DNA from: Desulfosporosinus acididurans
Lineage (GTDB): Bacteria; Bacillota; Desulfitobacteriia; Desulfitobacteriales; Desulfitobacteriaceae
Direction: 5' to 3'
NCBI RefSeq assembly: GCF_001029285.1
Contig: NZ_LDZY01000013.1
Location: 1-64,000, forward strand
Length of the DNA stretch: 64,000 bases
Shown here: in pieces, positions 15,474 through 60,857 of the stretch
How the letters are laid out: each line of letters opens with the position of its first letter
How positions within the stretch are numbered: position 1 is the stretch's first letter
Notes under the pieces: model-generated
What the model was told of the DNA's origin: nothing
Seen by the model: the letters and a program-made list of their open reading frames with translations, nothing else
Database searches by the model: none
Position numbers and translations under genes: made by a program

Positions 15474-16580
15474 TTATCGACTAGCTATGGTGCGAACGGC
15501 ATCGATAGCGGACTCTGTCTCTTCTTGCGTGTTGAAATGCGAGAAAGAAAACCGAACGGAGCCGGGTAGTTTAAGTCCATCATGCATCAATGGCGCACAA
15601 TGTGCCCCCGCTCGCACTGCAATGCCGTATTTCTCAAAAAGCAGACCGGCGACTTGAGCGGCATCATACCCTTCGATATTGAGAGAGACTATGGGTGTGC
15701 GGAGAGGCGCAGCCAAATCGCCGTAGAGTGTAACGCCTGGAGTATCTGCCAGTGAATGAGCAAAGAGGCGGGCCAGCCGATCCGCCTGGCTATGTATTGT
15801 GGATAGCCCGGTGGCCTGTATATATTGAACGCCAGCCAATAGTCCTGCGATCCCATGTGCATTTTGCGTACCAGCTTCCAGCGCATCGGGCAATTCCCGA
15901 GGATGTTTGAAGTCGAAAGAATGATGGCCGCTTCCTCCAACATACAGAGATTCGGGCATGTAATTGGGTCCTAAGCAAAGCCCGCCGGTACCTTGCGGTC
16001 CGAAGAGGGATTTATGACCTGTAAAGCAAAGCGCTGATATGTTTTTCATATCAATAGGCAAAAGTCCAGCGCTTTGTGAAGCGTCTACAATAAAGTGCAC
16101 GCCTCGTGCTGCACATAATTCCCCAACAGACTGTATATCGAATACGTTGCCTGTGACATTGGAAGCATGTGTAAGTACTACGGCTTCGGTGTCTGGCCGG
16201 ATGGCAGAGGAAATAGCTTCCGTCGAAATGCATCCTAGGTTGTCACAAGGAACAATGGTATAATTGTCCTGCCTGTATATGGGCCGCAGTACTGAATTGT
16301 GCTCTGCAGCGGTTGTAACGATATGTCCCTTGATGCCGGAAATGGCGATGTTTAAGGCGACAGTGGCATTGGGGGTGAATACAACGCGCATTGGATCGTC
16401 AGGAAGCCCAAAGAGTGAAGCCAAGGCTATCCGTGCTTCCATCAACATACGCAGGGCGTCAAGCGCTGGCCTATGTGCCCCGCGTGAAGCGTTGCCAAAC
16501 GTATCCATGGCATGCAAAACGGCCTCCTTGACGCAATCAGGTTTTTTTAGAGTTGTAGCAGCGTTGTCCAGATAAATCAT
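15474..16580 (-). CDS. Class V aminotransferase, cysteine desulfurase family (TIGR01977-like)
   Basis: PLP enzyme predicted to release sulfur or selenium from cysteine or selenocysteine. It begins MIYLDNAATTLKKPDCVKEA; the PLP lysine lies in CFTGHKSLFGPQGTGG; the reactive Cys is probably in RAGAHCAPLMH. The C-terminus GSVRFSFSHFNTQEETE fits the subfamily found with selD, yedF and DUF3343 in selenium-using Firmicutes. ATG 16580 follows GGAGAAAAAA; the in-frame TTG at 16592 overlaps that site. It is divergent from selD with about 75 bp between. Confidence 0.88.
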   Translation of the reverse strand: MIYLDNAATTLKKPDCVKEAVLHAMDTFGNASRGAHRPALDALRMLMEARIALASLFGLPDDPMRVVFTPNATVALNIAISGIKGHIVTTAAEHNSVLRPIYRQDNYTIVPCDNLGCISTEAISSAIRPDTEAVVLTHASNVTGNVFDIQSVGELCAARGVHFIVDASQSAGLLPIDMKNISALCFTGHKSLFGPQGTGGLCLGPNYMPESLYVGGSGHHSFDFKHPRELPDALEAGTQNAHGIAGLLAGVQYIQATGLSTIHSQADRLARLFAHSLADTPGVTLYGDLAAPLRTPIVSLNIEGYDAAQVAGLLFEKYGIAVRAGAHCAPLMHDGLKLPGSVRFSFSHFNTQEETESAIDAVRTIASR

Positions 16581-16656
16581 TTTTTTCTCCAATCTGTAAG
16601 CAGTGATTATTTTATCTTAGTATAATGCAAATACCTATGATAAGGAAGGGATTTCC

Positions 16657-17679
16657 ATGATGAGTTTATTGTCAAACTGTACGTCCGGCGGCTGCGGTGC
16701 CAAGATTGGCCCGGGCGAATTATCCAAGGTCTTGTCCGGTATGCCTGTATTTGGCGATCCTAGGCTCTTGGTCGGTTTTGATGCCTCAGATGATGCCGCT
16801 GTTTATCAAATTGATCAAGACACTGCTATTGTTTCTACTGTGGATTTTTTCTCGCCGATGGTTGATGATGCCCGCTCGTTTGGCCGAATCGCAGCTGCTA
16901 ATGCTTTAAGTGACGTATATTCCATGGGGGGTACACCACTTTTCGCCCTGAATCTCGTTTGTTATCCTGAGAGAATGGAATTAGACGCTTTGGGTGAAAT
17001 ATTATTAGGCGGCGCGGAAAAGATCCAAGAGGCGGGAGCAGTACTTTGCGGAGGTCATTCTATCTATGATAAAGAGCCGAAATATGGATTGGCGGTCACT
17101 GGACGTCTCGATCCGCAACGAATCTGGCGTAATAATACACCAGCTCCGGGGGATCAGTTGATCCTTACAAAACCACTCGGTATTGGTATCGTCATGGCTG
17201 CGCTGCGTGGAGAAATGGCAGATGAACAAGCTGTTCAGGCAGCGATTTCTTCCATGCAGCGGCTCAACAAATATGCTGCGGAGAAAATGCACAGTTTTCC
17301 GATCAGTGCCTGCACTGATATCACTGGTTTCGGACTGTTAGCCCATGCAAGAGAAATGGCGGGGGAAGGTACATCGCTGGTATTATATAGTTCGGAGCTG
17401 CCGTATATCCCTCAAGCTTATAAGTATGCCGGAGATTATCTGATAACTGCGGCTGCACAGCGCAATCGGAATCACATGCAGGGTTTTGTAGATCTTGGCG
17501 ATACACCCTTTGCCTTGCAGGAATTGATGTTTGATCCGCAAACCTCTGGAGGACTGTTTCTCAGTGCCCCGAAATCCTGTGCCCAAGAGTTGTTAAGTGC
17601 CATTCAGGAAGTGGAACCACTGGCTAGAATCGTAGGAGAAGTGCTCCTGCCGCAAAATTCACCGATTTTAGTACGTTAA
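16657..17679 (+). CDS. selD: Selenide, water dikinase (selenophosphate synthase)
   Basis: Makes selenophosphate, the selenium donor, from selenide and ATP. The N-terminus reads SNCTSGGCGAKIGPGELSKV, in which Cys and Lys of GCGAK match the catalytic pair; this is the Cys form, not a selenoprotein. GFDASDDAAVY and STVDFFSPMVDD carry the metal-binding acidic residues. 340 residues, full length. It is followed by yedF and DUF3343. selA, selB and selC are not in the window, so the product could serve Sec-tRNA (see the UGA peroxiredoxin) or another selenium use. Confidence 0.95.
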   Translation: MMSLLSNCTSGGCGAKIGPGELSKVLSGMPVFGDPRLLVGFDASDDAAVYQIDQDTAIVSTVDFFSPMVDDARSFGRIAAANALSDVYSMGGTPLFALNLVCYPERMELDALGEILLGGAEKIQEAGAVLCGGHSIYDKEPKYGLAVTGRLDPQRIWRNNTPAPGDQLILTKPLGIGIVMAALRGEMADEQAVQAAISSMQRLNKYAAEKMHSFPISACTDITGFGLLAHAREMAGEGTSLVLYSSELPYIPQAYKYAGDYLITAAAQRNRNHMQGFVDLGDTPFALQELMFDPQTSGGLFLSAPKSCAQELLSAIQEVEPLARIVGEVLLPQNSPILVR

Positions 17680-17691
17680 GGAGGAATAGTC

Positions 17692-18285
17692 ATGAATAAC
17701 ATTGATTGCATTGGACAGGTCTGCCCTATCCCGGTCATTCGGGCCAAAAAAGCGCTGGAGGGCTTGGGGGAAGCCGGCGGCGTAGTAGCCGTTTTAGTAG
17801 ATAACGACATTGCCCGTCAAAATCTTCAAAAGATGGCAACGGGTTTGGGTTATCAAAGCGAGTATGAGCAGAAAGAAGACGGTAATATCGAAGTTACTAT
17901 CGTTGCAGGAGAAGGCTGCACTGTGGAAAGCTGCGCGACAGACGGAGATTCAGGGCTCGTCGTTGCCATTGGCAGGAATACCATGGGGGAAGGCAGCCAG
18001 GAGCTGGGCCAAATACTGATCAAAGGTTTTATCTTTGCTCTCAGGGAGCTTGTGCCGCCGCCCACACATGTTCTGTTTTTCAATTCGGGGTCATACCTTA
18101 CCAGCAGTGATTCAAACTGCTTAGAGGACTTGCGCGCTCTGGAAGCAGCGGGAACGGTTATCCTGACCTGCGGAACTTGCACTAATTATTTCGAGATCAC
18201 GGAGAAGTTAGGGGTCGGCGAGATCACCAACATGTACGGCATCGTCACAGCTATGGCTGGGGCGAAGCGGCTTATTAATCTTTAG
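17692..18285 (+). CDS. yedF: Selenium metabolism protein YedF
   Basis: Two-domain protein. Residues 1-75 are TusA-like with the CPIP motif (DCIGQVCPIPVIRAKKAL). Residues about 95-197 are DsrE-like, with a Cys pair in VILTCGTCTNYF. Members of this family occur next to selD and are thought to handle reactive sulfur or selenium, though the exact reaction is not proven. It starts 12 bases after the selD stop with AAGGAGG, so it is in the same operon. Confidence 0.92.
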   Translation: MNNIDCIGQVCPIPVIRAKKALEGLGEAGGVVAVLVDNDIARQNLQKMATGLGYQSEYEQKEDGNIEVTIVAGEGCTVESCATDGDSGLVVAIGRNTMGEGSQELGQILIKGFIFALRELVPPPTHVLFFNSGSYLTSSDSNCLEDLRALEAAGTVILTCGTCTNYFEITEKLGVGEITNMYGIVTAMAGAKRLINL

Positions 18286-19963: not shown

Positions 19964-22645
19964 TTGGAGTGGTTTACTTTAACCATTGATGGACGAGAAG
20001 TCAGTGTCCCAAAAGGAACGACTGTGCTTGAAGCCTGTCGGATGCATGATATCTCAATTCCGACCTTGTGTCATGACCCGGAACTCACCTCTGCTGGTGC
20101 TTGTCGTTTGTGTATCGTCCAAATTGAAGGGATGCGTAATCTTCCCCCATCTTGTGTGACTCAGGTTGCCCAAGGCATGGCCGTTCAAACTCAAAATTCC
20201 AAAGTTCGGGCAGCCCGCAAAACAATTCTGGAACTGTTAGTAGCGAATCATCCGTTAGATTGTATGACATGCCAGAGGATGGGAAACTGCTCCTTAGCCC
20301 AATATGCTTATGAATATGGTGTCACCGGAACGCTTTATCAAGGCGAGCGTCGTAATCTTTCTGTGGACGAAGGGAATCCCTTCATTTTAAGAGACCCCAA
20401 TAAATGCATCTTGTGCGGTAAATGCATTCGGGCGTGTGATGAGATCCAAGGACGGAGCGTTTTGGATTTCTCTTTCCGTGGTTTTGATACCCAAGTTGGT
20501 CCGGCGTTTAATCTTCCCTATCACGAATCCGATTGCGTCTTCTGTGGTTCCTGCGTCTCTGTCTGTCCGGTCGGAGCGTTAACCGAAAAGAAGATGGCCG
20601 GCAAGGGGCGTCCCTGGGATGTTACGAAAGTTCAAACCACTTGCCCATTTTGTGGGACAGGCTGCAACTTCGATCTTAATGTGAAAGACGGTAAAGTCAT
20701 TGGTGTAACCTCAAACCCCAATGCCCCGGTTAATGGTAAAGCCTTATGTGTCAAAGGGCGGTTCGGGATGGATATGATTTACAGCCAAAACCGTTTAACA
20801 ACACCTTTAATACGAAAAGAGGGGGTATTAGTTCCTGCAGAATGGGATGAGGCCTTAGATTTAGTAGCGAAAAAGTTTCGGGAAATTAAAGACAATTATG
20901 GAGCGAACGCCCTTGCTGCTTTAAGTTCAGCTCATTGCACGAACGAAGAAAATTACCTCATGCAAAAGTTCATGCGTGCGGTTATCGGGACTAACAATAT
21001 CGATCACTGCGCCAGAGTCTGTCACGCCCCTACCGTAGCTGGTCTGGCGGTTTCGTTTGGTTCAGGAGCCTCAACGAATTCCTTTAACGAAATTCCGGAT
21101 GCCAAAGTCATGTTTGTTATTGGGGCAAACCCTACAGAAGCTCATCCTGTCGTTGGAACAAAGATGAAACAAGCCTTAGCTAAAGGGGCAAAGCTTATTG
21201 TCGCCGATCCTCGTAAAATAGAACTGGCAGAGGGTTCGGATCTATGGCTTAGACTTCGCCCTGGGACGGATGTTGCTCTCATTAATGGTATCATGAACAT
21301 TATTCTAGCTAATGGTTGGGAAGATCGTTCGTTCATTGAAAAACGTACGGAGGGGTTTGAAAAATTCCGCGAGAACCTTGAAAATTACCCGCCGGAAATA
21401 GTGAGTCAGCTCACTGGAGTTCCCGTGGAACAGCTTATAGAGGCTGCCAGAATCTATGCGACTGCTGAACGGGCCATGATTTTCTACACTTTAGGGATTA
21501 CCGAACACACAACGGGCACGGATAACGTGATGAGTTTGGCAAACCTTGCTATGCTAACGGGCAATGTGGGGAAGACGTATTCTGGCGTTAATCCCTTGCG
21601 CGGGCAAAATAATGTTCAAGGTTCTTGCGACATGGGTGCATTGCCTGGCGACTATCCAGGGTACCAGAAGGTTGTGAATCCAGAGGTGCAAAAGAAATTT
21701 GAAGAAGCATGGGGCGTAGCGCTAAGCCCAAATGTTGGACTCATGCTTCCTGATATGTTTCCGGCAGCCATTAACAAGGATTTACATGCTATGTATATTA
21801 TGGGCGAAGATCCGGTGGTTACCGATGCCGATGCCAATCATGTACGCAGGGGACTAGAATCCCTCGATTTCCTCGTAGTACAAGACATCTTTATGTCGGA
21901 GACCGCTAAAATGGCGGATGTTGTTCTGCCAGGAGCTAGTTTTGCAGAAAAGACCGGAACATTTACTAATGCCGAACGACGAATTCAAATGGTTAATCAA
22001 GCTATTCAGCCTATTAGTAATGCTAAAACTGATGGAGAAATCCTTTGTGAACTCGCCAACCGCATGGGATATCCGTTTTCCTATAATTCTTCAGCAGAAA
22101 TTATGCGGGAAGTGGCAAGGCTTACGCCTTTGTATGGAGGGGTTACACATGAGCGTCTTGGGACGCAAGGCCTGCAGTGGCCGGTACCAACCCTTGAACA
22201 TCCCGGGAGCAAGGTCTTACACCAAGAAACATTCTCGCGCGGTAAAGGAATCTTTATGGCAATTTCCTATCAGGAGGCTAACGAATTGCCTGATGAACAG
22301 TACCCGTTCCTACTCAGCACAGGCCGTAAACTTTCTCATTATAATGTTTTCACACAGAACTCAGAAGCACTCGACAGCTATTCTCCGGAAGAATTAGCAG
22401 AGATTAATCCGTTGGATGCTGAAAGGCTGGGTGTTGAAGATGGGGAACGAGTAAAAGTGACTTCCCGACGAGGGGAACTAGAAACAAAGATTCAAATAAC
22501 GGATCGTGTTCCATCTGGTATAGTCTTTATGACGTTTCATTATATGGAGACGCCTACTAATGTCTTAACCAATGGAGCTTCTGATAAAGTTTCCAAAACC
22601 TACGAATATAAGACCTGTGGCGTAAATCTTACAAAGATTGGTTAA
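19964..22645 (+). CDS. fdhA: Formate dehydrogenase, molybdopterin alpha subunit with ferredoxin-type N-terminus
   Basis: Oxidises formate to CO2 (or the reverse) at a bis-MGD Mo/W centre. Residues 1-80 form a [2Fe-2S] domain (PTLCHDPELTSAGACRLCIV). A NuoG-like Cys-rich segment follows (NHPLDCMTCQRMGNCSLAQY), then two [4Fe-4S] motifs (CILCGKCIRACDEIQG and CVFCGSCVSVCPVGAL). The catalytic domain begins CPFCGTGCNFDL, and the active-site residue is Cys near 352 in DHCARVCHAPTVAG, so this is the non-selenium form. 893 residues. TTG start after GAGGAGTGAG. NuoE/F-like partners are not adjacent. Confidence 0.93.
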   Translation: MEWFTLTIDGREVSVPKGTTVLEACRMHDISIPTLCHDPELTSAGACRLCIVQIEGMRNLPPSCVTQVAQGMAVQTQNSKVRAARKTILELLVANHPLDCMTCQRMGNCSLAQYAYEYGVTGTLYQGERRNLSVDEGNPFILRDPNKCILCGKCIRACDEIQGRSVLDFSFRGFDTQVGPAFNLPYHESDCVFCGSCVSVCPVGALTEKKMAGKGRPWDVTKVQTTCPFCGTGCNFDLNVKDGKVIGVTSNPNAPVNGKALCVKGRFGMDMIYSQNRLTTPLIRKEGVLVPAEWDEALDLVAKKFREIKDNYGANALAALSSAHCTNEENYLMQKFMRAVIGTNNIDHCARVCHAPTVAGLAVSFGSGASTNSFNEIPDAKVMFVIGANPTEAHPVVGTKMKQALAKGAKLIVADPRKIELAEGSDLWLRLRPGTDVALINGIMNIILANGWEDRSFIEKRTEGFEKFRENLENYPPEIVSQLTGVPVEQLIEAARIYATAERAMIFYTLGITEHTTGTDNVMSLANLAMLTGNVGKTYSGVNPLRGQNNVQGSCDMGALPGDYPGYQKVVNPEVQKKFEEAWGVALSPNVGLMLPDMFPAAINKDLHAMYIMGEDPVVTDADANHVRRGLESLDFLVVQDIFMSETAKMADVVLPGASFAEKTGTFTNAERRIQMVNQAIQPISNAKTDGEILCELANRMGYPFSYNSSAEIMREVARLTPLYGGVTHERLGTQGLQWPVPTLEHPGSKVLHQETFSRGKGIFMAISYQEANELPDEQYPFLLSTGRKLSHYNVFTQNSEALDSYSPEELAEINPLDAERLGVEDGERVKVTSRRGELETKIQITDRVPSGIVFMTFHYMETPTNVLTNGASDKVSKTYEYKTCGVNLTKIG

Positions 22646-52477: not shown

Positions 52478-52638
52478 AATTTAAAAACCTCTAATTTTTC
52501 AGAAGATTAATACCAATACATGCTATCAAAAATAGAGCAAAGTTTCAATCTATAGGATTCAAAACTTTCAGATCTAATGTCAAAGTCATACCTTTTTGCG
52601 TAATGTAATTTTAGTAAAATGATTAGGGAGGCACTATA

Positions 52639-53199
52639 ATGATTAAACCGACAATGCTTGCCCCCGATTTCTCAGCCGATGCCTATTTCCTAGGTAACAG
52701 AACTACAGTTACATTAAGCAGTTATAGAAACGATTGGGTTGTTTTGTTCTTTTATGCCAGCGATTTTACCTTTGTTTGACCAACAGAGTTGGGAGCCGTG
52801 GCTGCCCATCACCACTTCTTTGAGCAATTAGGAGTTAAGGTGCTCGCAATTAGTACTGATAGTGTATTTTCTCATAAAGTATTTGCTGAAGTTTCTCCAT
52901 CTGCCAGAACTATACAGTATCCATTACTCTCCGATAGAACCCACCGCATCTCTCTTGAGTATGGAGTTCTGAGAGAAGAATTAGGATTTACATTTAGAGC
53001 AACATTTATTATAGCTCCTGGTGGGGAAGTTAAATATTCCTGTCTGTATCCCCCTGAAGTTGGGCGTAATGTTTTAGAAATAATCCGAGTAATTCAGGGA
53101 CTTCAGTATGAAGAAGCAACTGGATTAGGTGTTCAGGCCGGCTGGCGTCCAGGACAACAAGGGCTTCGAAAGGATTTTAATTTGGTGGGTAAAATATAA
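52639..53199 (+). CDS. Selenocysteine-containing peroxiredoxin (in-frame UGA)
   Basis: AhpC/TSA-family peroxiredoxin. From ATG 52639 (after GGGAGG) the frame reads MIKPTMLAPDFSADAYFLGN, then FYASDFTFV, a TGA at 52777-52779, then PTELGAVAAHHHFFEQLG. The TGA falls exactly where the peroxidatic Cys of the FVCPTE motif is expected, so it should encode Sec. A candidate SECIS hairpin follows. The frame continues to TAA at 53197 with normal family features. The C-terminal resolving Cys is missing (GVQAGWRPGQQ), so it is probably a 1-Sec type. 186 residues. Confidence 0.88.
52790..52808 (+). promoter_or_regulatory. Candidate bacterial SECIS element
   Basis: Just behind the UGA, TGGG-AGC / GCT-(G)-CCCA forms a stem with loop CGTG. 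The loop begins 18 bases after the UGA and has G in its first two positions, as expected of bacterial SECIS hairpins. Confidence 0.6.
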
Positions 53200-59510: not shown

Positions 59511-60344
59511 TTACCTGCCGCCATAAAGTGTTTTTAATTGCTCGTCGTTCATCGTAAAACTATGTTGATCATCGGGGAAAAGTTCACTTCGTACTTCTTT
59601 AACGTATGTCTGTATGCCGTCAACAATTTGTTTGTTTATAGCCGCATAGGGTTTAACAAACTTGGAAACGCGTTCCACACCATAGGTGAGGACGTCATGG
59701 TAGACAAGGACTTGTCCGTCTGTATGCACTCCCGCACCAATCCCGATAGTAGGAATCGTTACAGATGATGAAATTTCCTCGGCGAGCTGTTTGGGAACGC
59801 ATTCGAGGACAATCGCAAATGCTCCTGCTTCCTGACATCGTTTTGCATCCTCGAGTAGTTTTCTGGCGCTTTCAACGTCTTTTCCTTGTACTTTAAATCC
59901 GCCCAGGACTCCTACTGATTGCGGAGTAAGTCCCAGATGAGCAACAACTGGAATACCGGCTTTAACAAGTGCTTCGATGTGTAAAAGTACTCCATCAGCG
60001 CCTTCCACTTTTACCGCCTGGGCACCGGTTTCCTGGATAAGCCTTGCTCCGTTTAAGAGTGTATCCCTAACAGATAGATGATAGCTCATAAAGGGCATGT
60101 CCACGACAAGAAACGTGTTACTAGCACCGCGTTTTGCTGCCTTTGCATGATGAATCATGTCCTCCATGGTCACATAAATTGTTGAATCATAACCAAGAAC
60201 AACATTGCCAAGGGAATCACCAACGAGAATCATGTCCACATCTGCCAGCTCAGCTTGTTTAGCGGATGGATAATCATAAGCCGTCAGCATGACAATTTTC
60301 TTTCTTTGCCGTTTCATTTCCAAGAAGTCTGTTGTTGATTTCAT
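59511..60344 (-). CDS. panB: 3-methyl-2-oxobutanoate hydroxymethyltransferase (PanB)
   Basis: First step of pantothenate synthesis: adds a hydroxymethyl group from methylene-THF to ketoisovalerate. [60 protein letters not shown] and VPTIGIGAG-like [20 protein letters not shown] carry the metal- and substrate-binding residues. 277 residues, full length. GGAGG precedes the ATG. panC/panD would have to lie elsewhere, as the next gene is on the other strand. Probably controlled by the leader RNA upstream. Confidence 0.97.
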
Positions 60345-60437: not shown

Positions 60438-60474
60438 CCCTCTGTCCTTGCCTGTAGCAGGTCTAGGCAGAACC
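60438..60474 (-). ncRNA. pan-motif-like leader RNA of panB
   Basis: On the minus strand the leader folds as TCTG-[CCTAGA]-CCTG-CTA-CAGG-[CAAGGA]-CAGA: two short helices around an internal loop containing A and G residues. Position (directly before panB, followed by a terminator) and shape agree with the pan RNA motif known from Firmicutes. I identified it by eye, without a covariance search. Confidence 0.5.
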
Positions 60475-60857
60475 ATTTAAATTGTCAAAGTTCCATAGGT
60501 GCAGTTCAAATGATACCGCCCAAAATGAGTATATCAGGTTATATTTCTCTTGACTATGGTTGTTTGGTTATTTTTGAGGTTTTCCAACGCATTCTCTTTA
60601 ATCCTGGTATATAATAAGGCTTATATTTAATCAGAAAAGAGATTCATCCATGTCAAGGGCAGCTAATAATTTCAATGTATTAATACATCGAAATTAATTT
60701 TATGTTACTATAGATCATAGTGTTGCTAAATTGATCTGTTCAAGAGCAGAAAATAATGTAAGCGAGTGAACTATAAAGTATAATAGTTAAGTGCTTGTTA
60801 ATCAAATCAAGATAGATGTATTGCCAAAACTCGCTGTTGAACTGCCTCGATAGGATC

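Follow-up and report, generated by a model that had tools for sequence, protein, structure and literature searches.

A predicted one-selenocysteine peroxiredoxin of Desulfosporosinus acididurans and its apparently Sec-only branch of the peroxiredoxins

Results

A peroxiredoxin frame interrupted by a single UGA

The DNA analysed here (the window) is a stretch of 64,000 nucleotides from Desulfosporosinus acididurans (contig NZ_LDZY01000013.1, positions 1 to 64,000), the relevant features of which are collected in Table 1. Read from the window sequence, the frame of the peroxiredoxin gene is interrupted only by the UGA at codon 47, which lies in the context DFTFV-UGA-PTE and aligns with the peroxidatic Cys of solved AhpC/Prx1 enzymes. 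The initial annotation had described one frame with a lone TGA in place of the Cys of FTFVCPTE; read-through translation and the alignment of codon 47 confirmed both points. Upstream of ATG 52639, the frame is closed by a stop within a few codons.

For this gene, a standard ORF listing gives only the frame from TTG 52789 to 53199 (136 aa), and no ribosome-binding site is evident before that TTG in the window sequence. The existence of this shorter ORF, together with the ordinary meaning of UGA as a stop, is what speaks for a pseudogene or truncated gene, in which the UGA would be a true stop and the remnant would decay or yield just the 136-aa product. Such a product would be without Thr44 and residue 47, and its translation would have to start with no evident Shine–Dalgarno sequence.

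Table 1. Features of the window that bear on the peroxiredoxin gene and on selenium metabolism
Feature	Position	Strand	Remarks
selD, selenophosphate synthetase, Cys form	16657..17679	+	TIGR00476 372.6 bits, cut-off 125
yedF, selenium-metabolism protein	17692..18285	+	TIGR03527 211.5 bits, cut-off 110
Shine–Dalgarno sequence AGGGAGG	52625..52631	+	Ahead of ATG 52639; read from sequence, then scored; strong
Predicted Sec-containing peroxiredoxin gene	52639..53199	+	Read-through translation of 186 aa with Sec47; stop TAA 53197-53199
Thr44 codon, active-site Thr of TxxU	52768..52770	+	Invariant in 85 clade members, 11 PrxU, and 18 comparison homologues
UGA predicted to be read as selenocysteine, in frame, peroxidatic position 47	52777..52779	+	Aligned with Cys of Cys-peroxiredoxins
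Putative bacterial SECIS hairpin GGGAGC-CGUG-GCUGCCC	52791..52807	+	Covariation; apical GU at 52798-52799
Arg120 codon, active-site Arg	52996..52998	+	Invariant in 85 clade members, 11 PrxU, and 18 comparison homologues
Val165 codon, AhpC/Prx1 resolving-Cys site	53131..53133	+	Cys absent from all 85 clade members and all 11 PrxU; present in 10 of 18 comparison homologues

Selenium machinery of the genome

The genome (4.64 Mb in 47 contigs, 100% complete) contains selA (565.6 bits), selB (379.6 bits), and, at a distance of about 1 kb from selB, a tRNA-Sec gene (selC) whose anticodon is TCA. A lack of selB or selC had been named beforehand as evidence against a selenoprotein; both are present. 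The selD and yedF genes, which had been said to fit a selenoprotein in the same window, were likewise recovered, both above their profile cut-offs. Among the three formate dehydrogenase alpha genes of the genome, two carry one in-frame UGA each (G000:C6:62969-64999 and G000:C10:195019-197013), and the third, at 19964-22645 of the window, has none. Judging from the two formate dehydrogenase genes predicted to be read through UGA, the Sec machinery is in use in this genome.

Several further loci were noted. Back to back with selD lies a cysteine desulfurase-family gene (15474-16592, minus strand), which scores just under the TIGR01977 cut-off and is a possible selenium donor. The Rfam gathering score for tRNA-Sec was barely passed by two more loci (G000:C3:298757-298842 and G000:C1:70482-70566), which are probably long-arm Ser or Leu tRNAs. 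An apparent panB (59511-60344, minus strand) is immediately preceded by an Rfam pan motif (60438-60522, minus strand, 57.5 bits), as in ordinary regulation.

Protein type and subfamily

The read-through protein matched Pfam AhpC-TSA at 119.4 bits (cut-off 26), and its predicted structure (pLDDT 90.6) was closest among solved folds to Salmonella AhpC, with a TM score of 0.93. The active-site Thr and Arg are in place, and the resolving Cys, claimed to be absent in the initial annotation, is indeed replaced by Val165. No other conserved Cys was found in the aligned domain among 85 clade members. Position 40, the Pro of the PxxxTxxC motif, is Ala in the window protein; across 82 members, it is mostly Ala, Ser, or Gly, and Pro in only 4.

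In the tree, the clade of the window protein (support 99/93) stands apart from the PrxU clade (100/99); each is its own supported clade, and a joint Sec clade of the two was neither supported nor rejected (p-AU 0.34). Alignment to PrxU-type selenoproteins had been suggested as a check, and by the NCBIfam model NF040737 the protein is not of this type: it scores 170.8 bits against a cut-off of 270, and nine members of its clade (the window protein and eight diverse relatives) score 140–191 bits, whereas a PrxU-clade member scores 325. The PrxU members examined have likewise lost the C-terminal resolving Cys, and this loss does not set the window gene apart.

A different protein, L142 (G120:C14:9870-10767), is a Prx6-like peroxiredoxin from a genome that has selB; its peroxidatic residue, too, is encoded by UGA (DFTPV-U-TTEF). 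By its sequence, it is a separate Sec-peroxiredoxin inside a Cys group, and the Cys label that it bears in the tree is an error.

Conservation of the UGA and selection on the frame

In a set of 150 related genomes, the gene was found in 18 from the same order, at 64–98% identity and each time with exactly one TGA. When the search was widened to 84,980 species, 413 relatives came up, of which the best 80 were retained. All of these best 80 of 413 have the UGA, in full-length frames and with no Cys at that position; 77 of the calls were made by motif search and 3 (L082, L110, and L121) by reading of the sequence. Their hosts include Desulfosporosinus, Peptococcaceae, Pelotomaculum, Sporomusa, Clostridium, Moorella, Thermohalobacter, Alicyclobacillus, and many Bacillaceae. 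The sets examined yielded no Cys form of the gene above ~45% identity, and no relatives were found on viral contigs. One copy (L120) is Bacillota-like, although its record bears the name Lutibacter sp. B2 (Bacteroidota); the record is probably misnamed or mixed.

Compared with the nearest relative (L019), the region 3′ of the UGA shows 20 synonymous and 0 nonsynonymous differences (dN 0, dS 0.233). Compared with L020, the same region gives dN 0.064 and dS 0.93, for a dN/dS of ~0.07. Purifying selection is strong on both sides of the UGA. A stop-truncated pseudogene among the relatives, the other finding that had been named as contrary, was not seen: the UGA-containing frame is intact and conserved. 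For a decaying remnant behind a true stop, neither this selection, upstream and downstream, nor the recurrence of the same UGA with no other stop in the 18 close relatives and the best 80 of 413 wider ones would be expected.

A covarying hairpin downstream of the UGA

The hairpin begins 11 nt past the UGA, at a fixed distance, and has a stem of six pairs and a loop of the form N-GU-N′. The loop-closing pair is formed by the third positions of two 4-fold degenerate codons, those of Ala53 and Val54. N and N′ are complementary in 82 of 83 distinct sequences (as C-G, A-U, or G-C), against 29 expected by shuffling, and the third positions of codons 52 and 55 form Watson–Crick pairs in 73 of 83, against 51 expected. 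In 48 sequences, the covariation score was 0.360, compared with 0.108 (S.D. 0.017) after shuffling and at most 0.123 when the partner was slid. As a caveat, only four changes of the loop-closing pair are needed on the tree. Synonymous change is also rarer around the hairpin, where the mean top-codon frequency is 0.80 versus 0.58. The codons GCC53 and GTG54 are fixed throughout the close group of the window gene (19 rows, with the window gene entered twice).

The window hairpin itself is among the weaker ones. With Gly52 (GGA) in place of Ala, one stem pair gives way to a bulged G or a G-G mismatch. The folding energy of a 44-nt stretch was unremarkable (z = 0.06), and equally good folding was seen in 13% of synonymous recodings, so folding energy was uninformative as evidence for a SECIS. 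No match for the element was found in Rfam. The proposal of a hairpin at a SECIS-compatible distance is thus upheld by comparative covariation, not by folding energy, and it is the strong covariation at degenerate codon positions that identifies the hairpin as a probable SECIS. In its distance and GU loop, it presumably resembles the SECIS of Escherichia coli fdhF.

Another candidate, a small local hairpin right after the UGA (CCAAC-AGA-GUUGG), is not kept in relatives and was rejected. In three PrxU-clade sequences (L042, L043, and L047), the hairpin appears to be shifted a few nt downstream (e.g. AUAGCC-GUG-GGCUAU in L043), so the position of the SECIS may move.

Co-occurrence with selB

Among the loci listed, the genomes with a single-TGA match, counted for the window clade and PrxU pooled, have selB in 30 of 30 cases, against 112 of 151 in the background (hypergeometric probability 4e-5). 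For a sample of 36 genomes from the Rossellomorea family, selB was present in 19 of 19 gene carriers and the gene in 0 of 6 genomes lacking selB (p 0.006). Both probabilities are too small, because the species are related and not independent. In addition, all 16 chosen gene-bearing genomes of other families have selB.

This tie to selB, and the conserved and covarying hairpin, add to the selection and recurrence of the UGA described above in making a pseudogene highly improbable; the comparisons indicate that the gene is a selenoprotein gene, not a pseudogene. Read-through with another residue (Trp, or Cys via near-cognate decoding), without SECIS-directed insertion of Sec, would likewise keep the downstream frame conserved. 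It is nonetheless very unlikely, given a complete Sec pathway that formate dehydrogenase genes use too, a covarying hairpin at a fixed distance, the co-occurrence with selB, and a position that is the catalytic Cys in homologues.

Cysteines and resolution of the oxidized selenium

Of 81 clade members, 60 have a Cys a short way ahead of the AP-F motif (rows L064-L127), in most cases as part of an N-terminal extension and mainly outside the lineage of the window gene. It is present in 31 of 31 Bacillaceae of the clade, mostly as FCA or similar. For these counts, a simple score of the ribosome site decided which start was used; in the predicted structure of one Bacillaceae protein (L097), residues 1–8 are of low confidence. 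From its distribution, this Cys might be a relocated resolving Cys in the relatives, as a candidate only; to our knowledge, a resolving Cys on an N-terminal extension is a position known in no described peroxiredoxin. It is impossible in the window gene, because the stop just 5′ of ATG 52639 closes the frame.

Oxidized Sec could be resolved within the molecule, by Cys135 in the window species or by the N-terminal Cys in relatives. Cys135 is present in the window protein, but only 13 of the 85 clade members share it, and the N-terminal Cys, for all its frequency elsewhere, has no extension to sit on in the window gene. Intramolecular resolution is therefore considered unlikely, and reduction by an outside thiol is preferred. 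No conserved neighbor gene or reductant partner was found across 41 loci.

Discussion

The best explanation of the comparative evidence is that the gene encodes a one-selenocysteine peroxiredoxin with SelB/SECIS-directed Sec47 and reduction by an outside thiol, to which we give a probability of roughly 0.88. Ribosomes would initiate at ATG 52639, and the hairpin would recruit the SelB–GTP–Sec-tRNA complex at the UGA, so that Sec47 is inserted, for which the comparative evidence is strong, and translation would run on to the TAA at 53197. Based on the conserved active site and knowledge of the family, Sec47, with Thr44 and Arg120, would reduce H2O2 or organic hydroperoxides and itself become a selenenic acid. 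Because there is no C-terminal resolving Cys and no other conserved Cys, the oxidized selenium would most likely be reduced directly by an outside thiol, for example thioredoxin or a small thiol. The likely role is peroxide defence in an anaerobic sulfate reducer.

The clade of the window protein is, on the sequences compared, apparently a widespread Sec-only branch of peroxiredoxins. How it arose can be sketched only tentatively: the subfamily may have given up both the near-universal Pro of the active site and the C-terminal resolving Cys, with resolution taken over by the N-terminal-extension Cys among Bacillaceae and in several further lineages, and this Cys then lost in most Desulfosporosinus/Peptococcaceae, leaving selenium alone. 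We regard this history as possible but rather doubtful. The natural absence of both the resolving Cys and the active-site Pro poses directly the question of what selenium makes dispensable in peroxide reduction. The gene adds a well-supported selenoenzyme to sulfate-reducing Desulfosporosinus, and its clade a selenium-dependent peroxidase branch spread across Bacillota, Bacillaceae included. Current annotation models do not fully cover this branch, and its members may be cut short in annotation because they fall below the NCBI model cut-off.

Sec peroxiredoxins are themselves already known. The survey family "Peroxiredoxin (Prx)", with which the window protein shares the TxxU active site, comprised 12 genes in 2006 (PMC1794560) and 91 genes from 78 organisms in 2016 (PMC5029168); as searched, the texts of the two surveys make no subfamily split of Prx and do not name Desulfosporosinus. 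A 2026 review gives the motif PxxxTxxU (PMC13188914), which is mostly broken by the window clade. No description of this subfamily was found in the open-access papers searched.

Of the described systems, PrxU of Eubacterium acidaminophilum (the NF040737 family) shares with the window protein the UGA at the peroxidatic position, the AhpC/Prx1 fold group, a GU-loop hairpin at a similar distance, and the lack of a C-terminal resolving Cys (11 members examined). The two differ in that they are 40–49% identical, form separate clades, and are told apart by the NF040737 score; PrxU has Pro at position 40 (YPGDFTFVU in 11 of 11), where the window protein has Ala. With AhpC, the typical 2-Cys peroxiredoxin of the Prx1 group (TIGR03137), the window protein shares the fold, Thr44, and Arg120, but it has predicted Sec for Cys, Val165 for the resolving Cys, and Ala40 for Pro, and it scores 159 bits in this model against a cut-off of 272. 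Prx6-type 1-Cys peroxiredoxins likewise have a single catalytic redox residue and lack an AhpC-type resolving Cys at the C-terminus, but a fully supported branch lies between the Prx6-like group and the window clade. What is new relative to these systems is the set of subfamily features of the window clade.
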